A stretch of 64,000 bases of DNA, taken from contig NZ_AP022332.1 in NCBI RefSeq assembly GCF_009936375.1, positions 2,698,501 to 2,762,500 of the forward strand, in the 5' to 3' direction. Below the pieces are notes generated by a model, which was not told where the DNA came from, searched no databases, and saw only the letters and a program-made list of their open reading frames with translations. A program made the translations under genes and the position numbers. This DNA is from Methylosinus sp. C49. Its GTDB lineage: Bacteria > Pseudomonadota > Alphaproteobacteria > Rhizobiales > Beijerinckiaceae. Below, piece after piece: positions 19,779-21,998 of the stretch (positions within the stretch are counted from its first letter, which is position 1; the number at the start of each line of letters is the position of its first letter).

Positions 19779-19895
19779 TCAGCCCCCGTGGGAAATGATG
19801 GGGGCGAAATGAACCAGGGTGATGATCAGCGCGATCGCGCCGATGAACCACGCCAGCGACTTGACGATGTCCTTCCCAGAGGTCTGCAGAGCCAT
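19779..19895 (-). CDS. 38-residue single-pass membrane peptide next to copper-type genes
   Basis: Short frame starting MALQTSGKDIVKSLAWF behind GGAGAAG, with one hydrophobic helix (AWFIGAIALIITLVHF) and a short end APIISHGG. It lies 142 bases downstream of the PCu(A)C-like gene on the same strand. An ATG four codons upstream (19907) is in frame but lacks a ribosome-binding site. Two histidines flank the helix exit. I recognise no family. The strong ribosome-binding site, clean stop and membrane helix argue that it is real. Confidence 0.6.
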   Translation of the reverse strand: MALQTSGKDIVKSLAWFIGAIALIITLVHFAPIISHGG

Positions 19896-20037
19896 TTTCT
19901 TCTCCATTGGTACGCCGCCGCTCGTTGTTTCGAATTGGCTGCGCGCAGAGGCGTCAGGGGTCGCAGCTTGACCTATCGAATGGCGACATATCGCGTCGCG
20001 CGCAAGTTAATTTTTCGAGCAGCTTCGGGAAAAGGGC

Positions 20038-20646
20038 TCACTGCGCCGGCTGCGGCTCGCCCAGCCCCGGCTGCGCCTCGCCCTGGCCCTTCTGCTCCTC
20101 ATGGCCCGAACGATGATCCTCGACCGGCGCGTCGCCGGCCTGTGGCGTCCGATGCGCCTTCTCCCATCTCTCCATCGCTTCCGCATCATGCGCATGCGCG
20201 GCGTCGGGCGCGTCGATCGCCGCATCGATGAGCAGCTCGCCGGCCTTCTCGAACACGAGAGTGAGCTCGAAGCCCCAGCCGACGGGGTTGATCTTCTTTA
20301 TGCCGGAGAGATGGACGAAGGAGGCGCCCGGCGCGAGCGTCACCTTCGAGCCCGTAGGAAGGAAAATCGCATCGGTGGCGACCGCGAATTGAGGAGCGAC
20401 ATGCAGATCGAAGCCGCCGATCTCGGGAGATTTCACTCCGATGAGACGATCGGCGGCGTCGCTACGATTATAGACGACCATGAACAGATTGGCGTCGCTC
20501 TCGCCGTCGCGCGGCGCGCGCAGCCAAGGATGCTCCACCTTGATGCCGCCTTTTTCATATTCATGCGCGCTCACGCGAGAAAGGCCGCTCGCAGCCAGCG
20601 CAGCGCCTCCGGTCAAAAGCAGAACGCGCCGTCGATCGATAGACAT
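20038..20646 (-). CDS. PCu(A)C-like periplasmic copper-binding protein, Met-ligand-free type
   Basis: About 202 residues. A twin-arginine-like signal (IDRRRVLLLTGGAALAASGL) ends in VSA, so the predicted mature protein begins HEYEKGGIKVEHPWLRAP with an N-terminal histidine. The cupredoxin-like PCu(A)C core follows. The canonical H-M-x10-M-x21-H-x-M copper motif is altered: both His are kept (GGFDLHVAPQ and SFVHLSGIK), but the three Met positions read Val, Ile and Ser. From recalled literature, methanotroph PCu(A)C proteins (PmoF type) bind copper through a histidine brace, which fits this sequence. The last 50 residues are His/Glu/Gln-rich. AGGGAGG lies upstream. Second gene of a likely operon, 68 bases after the anchored protein. 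Confidence 0.8.
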   Translation of the reverse strand: MSIDRRRVLLLTGGAALAASGLSRVSAHEYEKGGIKVEHPWLRAPRDGESDANLFMVVYNRSDAADRLIGVKSPEIGGFDLHVAPQFAVATDAIFLPTGSKVTLAPGASFVHLSGIKKINPVGWGFELTLVFEKAGELLIDAAIDAPDAAHAHDAEAMERWEKAHRTPQAGDAPVEDHRSGHEEQKGQGEAQPGLGEPQPAQ

Positions 20647-20714
20647 GCTCGCCTCCCTTTCGGCGCGCCGCAGGAGTCGCGGCGCCACACGCAATGACGG
20701 CGAAGGCGCCGCGA

Positions 20715-21278
20715 TCACGCGCGCGGCGGCTTCGCCTTGAAAGAGTTTTTGTACCAGAGACCGAATCCGACCAGTCCCAGCCCCGCAAAAAAAGTCGCGA
20801 TGGTGATGTCGCGGCTTTCGGTCTCACCGACGGAGAAGGGAAAGCGCGAGACATATTCTTTCGTCCCGTCGTCGGTCTTCGCCTTGACCAGGCCGATGAA
20901 CTTTCCCTTGTTCTTGAAGTCGTATTCGAAGTTGAGCGTGCCGGTGCGATATTTCTTCGCCGGCACATAGGTCTCGGTGTTTTTCTCGAGGTTCTCGTCG
21001 TCGCTCGCCTGACCGACATCGCGCAGAATGCGGATCTCCAAATTCATGTCGCGCAGCTCGTCCTGCACGGCGTCGAGGACGATGATCGTCGGGCCGATAT
21101 CGGGAATGTCGTCGCAGAATTGCTCGCGCGACTTCAGCGGCTGATAGCCGGTAAAATTCATCTGATCGGGTCCGATCTTCATCTTGCATTGGCCTTCGTC
21201 GATGCTGACGCCGCCATGCGCCTGCGCCTGCGTCGCCATGCCGATGAAAATCGCCGCGGCAAAAAATCGAACGATCAT
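20715..21278 (-). CDS. Periplasmic, C-terminally anchored protein with mature N-terminal His
   Basis: 187 residues with a signal peptide ending QAQA before HGGVSIDEGQCKMKIGPD, so the mature chain also begins with histidine. It has CKMK and a later Cys in SREQFCDDIPDIGPTIIVLD, a charged middle (ELRDMNLEIRILRDVG), a beta-rich part and one C-terminal helix (TIATFFAGLGLVGFGLWY) with a basic tail, so the domain would sit in the periplasm tied to the inner membrane. The FTGYQP and FCDDIP blocks recur in an uncharacterised family as far as I recall. The layout resembles PmoD-like proteins, but I cannot claim homology. First gene of the set, with GGGAGAG upstream. Confidence 0.7.
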   Translation of the reverse strand: MIVRFFAAAIFIGMATQAQAHGGVSIDEGQCKMKIGPDQMNFTGYQPLKSREQFCDDIPDIGPTIIVLDAVQDELRDMNLEIRILRDVGQASDDENLEKNTETYVPAKKYRTGTLNFEYDFKNKGKFIGLVKAKTDDGTKEYVSRFPFSVGETESRDITIATFFAGLGLVGFGLWYKNSFKAKPPRA

Positions 21279-21365
21279 GTCTCTCTCCCGATCGCGCGTC
21301 TTTGAAGGGGCGCGCTTTTCCCCGAGCGCCGCCGCCGCATCGGCTGCTCATCGTGACACGATGAA

Positions 21366-21386
21366 TATAGATCGTATAGCGATATA
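21366..21386. promoter_or_regulatory. Candidate operator between the divergent MarR and anchored-protein genes
   Basis: The A+T-rich stretch TATAGATCGTATAGCGATATA contains arms ATCG and CGAT around the five-base spacer TATAG, with looser symmetry extending outwards (TATA and TATA). It lies 88 bases before the anchored-protein ATG and 136 bases before the MarR ATG, in an otherwise G+C-rich gap. The size and symmetry suit a MarR dimer. Pattern-based only. Confidence 0.35.
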
Positions 21387-21521
21387 AATGCAAGCGCGCG
21401 CCCGCTGCGCCGCATGGCCGCGCCGGTCCCGGGCGGAACGCCTTGACCCCGCGCGGGGCGAAGGCCATCATGGGCGCTTGGCCGAAGATCGCGGGCAGCG
21501 AATCCGAGGAGAATGAGAAAA

Positions 21522-21998
21522 ATGTCGACGGCGCTCGAGAGCCGCCCTCAGGAAGCCGAAGACGACGGACGCCCCTCCGAGGAGGAGCTTCGCGCCCTCG
21601 CCGATTTTCGCTATGCGCTGCGGCAATTCCTCGCCTTCAGCGAGCAGGCGGCCGCGGATGTCGGCCTGACCACGCAGCGCTACCAGGCGCTGCTCGCCAT
21701 CAAGACGTTTCGCGAAGGGGCGCATATCAGCGTCGGCGAGCTCGCCGAGCAATTGCTGATCCGCGATCACAGCGCCGCGGAGCTGGTCTCGCGCCTCGAG
21801 CAAGCCAAGCTCGTCAAGCGCAAGAACGACCCTCTCGATCGGCGTCGCTCGCTCATCGTGCTGACGGCGCTCGGCGACCGTCGGCTGGCGCAGCTCGCTT
21901 TCGTGCATTTGCGCAAGCTACGCGCCGAAAAAAGCGCCTTTCTGCATCTCTTCGACACGCAATCGGACAGCGAGCCGCAAGATCAGACGCCGCGCTGA
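21522..21998 (+). CDS. MarR-family transcriptional regulator
   Basis: 158-residue winged-helix regulator. The MarR core is visible: FSEQAAADVGLTTQRYQALL, the recognition region ISVGELAEQLLIRDHSAAEL with VSRLEQAKLVKRK, and the wing DPLDRRRSLIVLTALGDR containing the DxRxxxxxLT signature. GAGGAG sits ten bases before the ATG at 21522; an ATG at 21513 is too close to it. The gene is divergent from the anchored-protein/PCu(A)C operon and is therefore the prime candidate to control it and itself. The ligand (copper, oxidant or small organic acid) cannot be deduced; only generic features are visible. Confidence 0.88.
   Translation: MSTALESRPQEAEDDGRPSEEELRALADFRYALRQFLAFSEQAAADVGLTTQRYQALLAIKTFREGAHISVGELAEQLLIRDHSAAELVSRLEQAKLVKRKNDPLDRRRSLIVLTALGDRRLAQLAFVHLRKLRAEKSAFLHLFDTQSDSEPQDQTPR

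Follow-up and report, generated by a model that had tools for sequence, protein, structure and literature searches.

Genes of the locus and their neighborhood

Four genes occupy positions 19779 to 21998 of the window, the whole 64,000-nucleotide stretch of DNA analyzed here. Three lie on the minus strand and encode a 187-residue PmoD-family protein (gene 1, 20715..21278), a 202-residue PmoF protein with a PCuAC domain (gene 2, 20038..20646) and a one-helix membrane peptide of 38 residues that ends in HFAPIISHGG (gene 3, 19779..19895). The fourth, on the plus strand and divergent from pmoD, encodes a MarR-family regulator (21513 or 21522..21998). All four genes, and the divergence of the three minus-strand genes from MarR, are as the original prediction placed them. 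Rfam gave no match at E 0.1. The genome is that of a Methylosinus-type methanotroph with pMMO, and carries eight PmoD genes, three PCuAC genes, an extended pmo operon (pmoC-A-B-pmoD-copC-copD-pmoF1) and a second pmoCAB copy. A role in copper handling, as a gene set of alphaproteobacterial methanotrophs, is well supported for the locus and is largely known already.

Nine other loci, which were picked for having both genes, likewise have a MarR homologue pointing away from PmoD. The MarR and PmoD pair with PmoF, the peptide or both recurs in other genomes, which makes the arrangement more than a chance one. In locus L024, a CuA-type PmoD, a CopD-like gene, PmoF and the peptide come after the MarR-linked PmoD; in locus L031, that PmoD precedes genes resembling CopC and CopD and then PmoF, and no peptide was found. 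The CopC and CopD assignments in both loci were made by inspection. Gene order in these two loci connects the module with pmo accessory genes.

Exported proteins of the PmoF and PmoD families

Gene 2 was assigned from Pfam and PDB chain matches. Its PCuAC domain (PF04314, E 8.7e-14) scored 51.8 bits against a cut-off of 29.4, and the protein matched chains 6p1g (E 1.3e-49), 6p1f (4.8e-49) and 6p17, which is PmoF1 (9.4e-36). The structure table names 6p1g and 6p1f copper chaperone PCu(A)C, and we take both to be PmoF2 of M. trichosporium OB3b. In genome G128 the syntenic PmoF aligns with 6p1g through query residues 28-159 and is identical to it from HEY to the chain end, the sole mismatch being the residue that precedes the His; because its PmoF equals this presumed OB3b PmoF2, G128 is taken as OB3b. 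The window PmoF occupies the same genomic place as the G128 protein and resembles PmoF1 and PmoF2 (6p16, 6p17, 6p1f, 6p1g) in its HEY start and PCuAC domain. It differs from the PmoF2 structures in being 53% identical, over 196 residues, to the 6p1g-equal G128 protein, and its copper binding is a prediction.

The cleavage sites of both exported proteins were deduced from A-x-A and V-x-A motifs, motif conservation and the solved chain 6p1f. By inspection, gene 2 is cleaved between VSA and HEY, and 6p1f begins at HEY, as does the predicted mature protein. Gene 1 shows, also by inspection, a signal peptide cleaved between AQA and HGG and a C-terminal transmembrane helix. The earlier expectation that both mature proteins begin with His (HGG and HEY) agrees with the motif reading, the conservation and, for gene 2, the start of 6p1f. 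PmoF proteins are described as binding through a histidine brace (available portions of PMC8424229 and PMC10952591; original in J Biol Chem 2019), and the predicted N-terminal His of gene 2 fits this brace. In the PmoF of genome G017 (L155 2410..3228, minus strand) the sequence is AQEY in place of the AHEY found elsewhere, and the mature N-terminal His is apparently missing.

Gene 1 has no match in Pfam or NCBIfam; its assignment comes from phmmer (E 2.9e-23 against PDB 6cpd, a PmoD), alignment and inspection. Its mature protein starts H21-G-G and contains C31, M40 and C55, with C31 and C55 invariant in the PmoD alignment. PmoD/AmoD proteins are defined by two invariant Cys residues, an N-terminal signal peptide and a C-terminal transmembrane helix (PMC6189053, in the portion available), all of which gene 1 possesses, the last two by inspection. 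The CuA-forming Cx7MxHxnC motif is absent, with C-x8-M-N and no internal His in its place. Gene 1 is by its sequence a member of the non-CuA Cx8MxnC class described in the available text of PMC6189053, whereas the PmoD of the pmo operon belongs to the CuA-forming Cx7MxHxnC class. Since H21 is the sole His of the mature protein, a single chain cannot build a two-histidine brace; a copper site might instead be mono-histidine or inter-chain. The likeness to histidine-brace proteins suggested for both exported proteins therefore fits gene 2 and lacks a second mature His in gene 1.

An AHG start, with cleavage before the His, is present in 22 of 26 genuine non-CuA PmoD rows, many of them orthologous to one another (27 rows less one spurious frame), and in none of 13 alphaproteobacterial CuA-motif rows. 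This count is a sample, as at least two PmoDs of the window genome escaped the pattern, L015 at 15341 (AHGG) and L020 (start differs). The idea that His-Gly at the N-terminus and the CuA motif never occur together was considered and fails in genome G327, where one of two CuA-motif PmoD rows reads AHG and the other GHG. Published PmoD constructs bear a vector-derived Ser-Met at the N-terminus (PMC6189053, available text), and the 6cpd chain starts SMGNMC, within the mature protein. Because of the extra Ser-Met, these constructs could not probe a free N-terminal His as a ligand; this points to a gap and is no sign that copper binds, and the free N-terminal His of non-CuA PmoDs is a candidate copper ligand. 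The covered native N-terminus offers a testable reason why non-CuA PmoDs are without CuA-like features in vitro. Term searches of the main text of PMC6189053 returned no mature N-terminal His for the Cx8MxnC class and no MarR, and no peptide like the 38-residue one was met in the portion available.

The same source, in its available text, counts eight pmoD genes in OB3b and reports that the PCuAC-adjacent pmoD MettrDRAFT_3934 is copper up-regulated and correlated with the pmo operon and csp1. On the strength of its PCuAC neighbor, MettrDRAFT_3934 is probably the G128 counterpart of the module's pmoD; the extended pmo operon of OB3b also has a PCuAC gene, but the tag of its pmoD is 0381 (PMC6189053, available text). 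The copper-handling role originally proposed for the locus is upheld by PmoD and PmoF family membership and by this reported up-regulation.

Two PmoD variants were observed in passing. A PmoD beside a second pmoCAB (L016 6145..6723) is without the CuA-motif Met/His and without the N-terminal His, starting ARGD. Another (L022 5450..5928 and L041 204..682, possibly one strain) is apparently frameshifted, with three match pieces; PmoF2 and the peptide are intact in both loci, and MarR also in L022.

The MarR regulator and a conserved class of operator-like dyads

The regulator contains a MarR winged-helix domain (PF12802, MarR_2, E 5.7e-12, 46.1 bits against a cut-off of 27). Its sequence has no Cys and no evident sensing site. 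Between it and pmoD, a pattern scan located two tandem operator-like dyads. Dyad 1 (21367..21387; TATATCGCTATACGATCTAT on the pmoD strand) adjoins a -10-like TATATT, a promoter by inspection only, as a consensus promoter scan listed none at dyad 1; dyad 2 (21346..21366; TCATCGTGTCACGATGA) has 8-bp arms. Several copies depart from the consensus, ATCGTnnnACGAT. A dyad of the form TCGnnnnnCGA, flanked by AT-rich sequence, occurs in all ten MarR–pmoD regions (the window, L022, L023, L024, L031, L052, L053, L092, L096 and L101; in L092 the PmoD start is out of view and the region end was guessed), and in seven of the ten it is tandem at a spacing of 21 to 23 bp. A matrix was trained on 17 of the 20 pattern matches in these regions, three having been dropped as unlike the rest, so that matrix scores at the MarR–pmoD sites themselves are circular.

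Sites elsewhere provide evidence from outside the training regions. A weaker dyad (19971..19991; score 15.3 with the final matrix, outside the training set) lies upstream of the window's peptide gene. After removal of L068, which is not a peptide, from 27 rows, 8 of the 11 loci with PmoD nearby carry a dyad scoring at least 15 ahead of the peptide gene (6 of 9 where MarR is in view), and none of the 15 loci without a nearby PmoD does (best 12.6). Random 330-nt segments reached this score in 52 of 3000 cases; they were drawn from the collected loci, module loci included, and the Methylosinus copies are not mutually independent.

The same class of dyad precedes the pmo-operon pmoD in all five Methylosinus-type loci (L015, L027, L033, L034 and G128), about 400 to 450 nt ahead of the first pmoD Cys codon in the four L loci. 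It lies between pmoB and pmoD in L015, the sole one of those four with pmoB placed, and likewise in the extended copy of G128, the second pmoCAB copy there being without a dyad. Among the matches listed, exact dyads lie about 130 bp past the pmoB match in G146 and G174; the listed multi-genome matches to the symmetric pattern come from six of twelve genomes, one of them covered in part. A dyad tandem also stands before a MarR and PmoF pair in G017, and a strong dyad lies ahead of a small Cys-rich exported protein in the window genome, L031 and G146.

Within the window genome, the asymmetric pattern (at most two mismatches) gave 13 matches, where the control had 5, and its best two sites are the MarR–pmoD gap and the Cys-rich gene. 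The symmetric pattern (at most one mismatch) gave 16 against 4, from which a fair share of its sites must be unrelated or unknown. In 158 kb of this genome (the window and seven PmoD/PCuAC loci), five sites scored at least 15; four of them, of which two are training sites, belong to the module or to the pmo operon.

These results predict a MarR regulon that would reach into the pmo operon, the best supported of our inferences. The principal alternative is that MarR governs only its own gene and pmoD, that the other dyads serve different MarR-family regulators with similar operators, and that the copper link is by gene order alone. The class is indeed not exclusive to copper genes: one window-genome dyad sits between convergent genes, the strongest in G089 precedes a transporter that looks MFS-type, and the strongest in G199 has no clear gene beside it (the last two by inspection). 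Consistent with such a narrow role, the score-15 dyads before peptides are confined to the PmoD-linked loci, and none of seven Methylocystis-type pmo loci has a dyad before pmoD, which counts against the wider regulon. On the other side, the same class separately precedes the peptide, the pmo accessory half and the Cys-rich gene, and the clustering of four of the five high-scoring sites in the module or pmo operon, even with two of them in the training set, is not what a narrow role would lead one to expect. We regard a regulator restricted to its own gene and pmoD as unlikely, at perhaps one chance in four.

The Cys-rich exported protein (SC...ARCxxxCD...CxxxCGC) is encoded at L125 1787..2056 (window genome, C1, about 3.15 Mb), L031 8292..8573 and L159 3535..3933; the two examples compared with Pfam had no match.

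A conserved one-helix peptide

Gene 3 was evaluated by alignment, genome counts and codon pattern. MALQ is the preferred start, since some homologues have no ATG just upstream. An alignment of 19 representatives shows K12, W16, A31, P32, I34, S35 and H36 to be invariant, and the peptide is predicted, by inspection of K8/K12, to lie N-in/C-out. Between the window and L024 copies, differences at codon positions 1, 2 and 3 number 7, 2 and 14, and identity is 79% in the coding sequence and 20% over the preceding 140 nt (a count without gaps, which any indel would reduce); upstream identity to the window copy is 67% for L023 and 64% for L022. The codon-position pattern and the coding versus upstream identity indicate that the peptide evolves as a coding gene. 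Neither Pfam nor NCBIfam has a match to it, and neither does the plasmid collection. A degenerate second copy adjoins the intact gene in G128 (L042 1944..1997).

After removal of false matches, the peptide was detected in 11 of 199 family genomes (12 before), in 9 of 10 genomes of the window's genus (10 before), in 12 of 39 sister-genus genomes (13 before; the draft G209 has five matches) and in 2 of 398 genomes across the phylum (3 before). The rejected matches were that of G078 (E 0.004 to 0.006), whose peptide is another one and lacks the APxISH tail, that of G114 (E 0.015), that of G476, within a 448-codon frame, and others above E 1e-10, including the MNNxIW...LGLR peptides of pmoB-negative genomes (nine inspected). 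A weak second match in the window genome (E 1.3, two places) was taken as chance, both places lying inside pmoA by coordinates. In the sister genus the peptide is mostly distant from pmoD and pmoF, and is near MarR and PmoD in G199, G202 and one G209 copy.

This distribution bears on a further alternative, in which the peptide belongs to the pMMO complex as an accessory transmembrane helix and is not a partner of PmoD or PmoF; its production alongside the copper proteins would then reflect the fact that pMMO is made when copper is replete. Of the 199 family genomes, the peptide occurs in 10 of the 20 with pmoB (PF04744) and in one of the 179 without a pmoB match, the 2.1-Mb sister-genus draft G164, and is thus almost restricted to pMMO-bearing genomes. 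Its single helix with strongly conserved residues, its usual distance from pmoD and pmoF in the sister genus and the operator class that it has in common with the extended pmo operon of Methylosinus-type genomes also agree with a pMMO helix. Alphaproteobacterial pMMO crystal structures show an unidentified helix, and native-membrane pMMO and AMO structures show supernumerary helices. In the available portions of the reports, the in-membrane pMMO map of M. capsulatus has extra densities that the model does not fit (PMC9445010), and additional small subunits are described for archaeal AMO (PMC10030591). These include AmoX, AmoY and AmoZ, which are proposed to be small membrane proteins accompanying subunits A, B and C, and to which the peptide is likened by description only. 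Unlike a universal subunit, the peptide is not a constant companion of pMMO: complete co-occurrence had been expected and was not found, 10 of 20 pmoB-positive genomes having no detectable peptide, which argues against a universal pMMO subunit unless the sequence has diverged past detection. Furthermore, no PDB chain matches the peptide by single sequence or profile, in a set of chains with assigned residues. A pMMO subunit is a doubtful identity for the peptide, slightly less probable than the restricted regulator considered above. The intact peptide beside an apparently broken PmoD in L022/L041 implies that it need not act with PmoD.

A predicted copper regulon

With a probability of roughly 0.55, we favor a copper-handling unit under a MarR-family repressor, with a copper route from PmoF2 through PmoD to pMMO and the peptide as a helper. 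MarR dimers would occupy the dyads that overlie the divergent promoter, releasing them once copper suffices or pMMO is in use. In the periplasm, the histidine brace of PmoF2 would capture Cu(II), which would then go to PmoD, whose copper site would combine the N-terminal His with the Cys/Met cluster; from PmoD the metal would reach pMMO or some other cuproenzyme of the membrane. As a neighbor of PmoD or pMMO in the inner membrane, the peptide would expose its conserved APxISH tail on the periplasmic side, for docking or for contact with copper. The family assignments and dyad conservation are sequence results, and from them we infer MarR binding, a copper response, the copper route and the role of the peptide.

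One dyad class covers the MarR–pmoD gap, the region upstream of the peptide and, in Methylosinus-type genomes, the pmoD-copC-copD-pmoF1 half of the extended pmo operon. Its presence at these places lends the functional link more than gene order alone. The original prediction drew that link from gene order and N-termini; the dyads add to this, and a role for the peptide is as yet a proposal. A more ambitious joint reading, in which the MarR copper regulon comprises the module, the pmo accessory half, the Cys-rich protein and the peptide, the peptide truly partners pMMO or PmoD through a copper-contacting APxISH, and the His-Gly PmoDs hold an N-terminal-His copper site hidden in the Ser-Met constructs, is unlikely.

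The two exported proteins are, by sequence, PmoD and PmoF, families that were already known, so their pairing can be named and this part of the gene combination is not new. The earlier statement that the combination could not be named holds for the peptide and the MarR: among the matches listed from a literature search reaching few subscription journals, no account of either was found. Apparently new is that one class of DNA site may let MarR govern pmoD, pmoF, the 38-residue peptide and part of the pmo operon. The conserved peptide family, the shared dyad class and the usual His-Gly start predicted for non-CuA PmoDs are likewise new. How pMMO obtains copper and electrons, and which components are lost from purified preparations, are posed as open questions in the available text of PMC6189053; a regulator with predicted sites in the extended pmo operon, a conserved peptide encoded beside its targets and the covered N-terminus of the non-CuA PmoD constructs each offer a direct experiment.

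PmoD loci also encode a further exported family. The two members compared with Pfam (L031 and L020) had no match there; proteins of this family start with (F)C(L/W)FGC and are encoded at L031 6792..7268, L092 4380..4850, L096 5102..5572 and L020 10980..11453.
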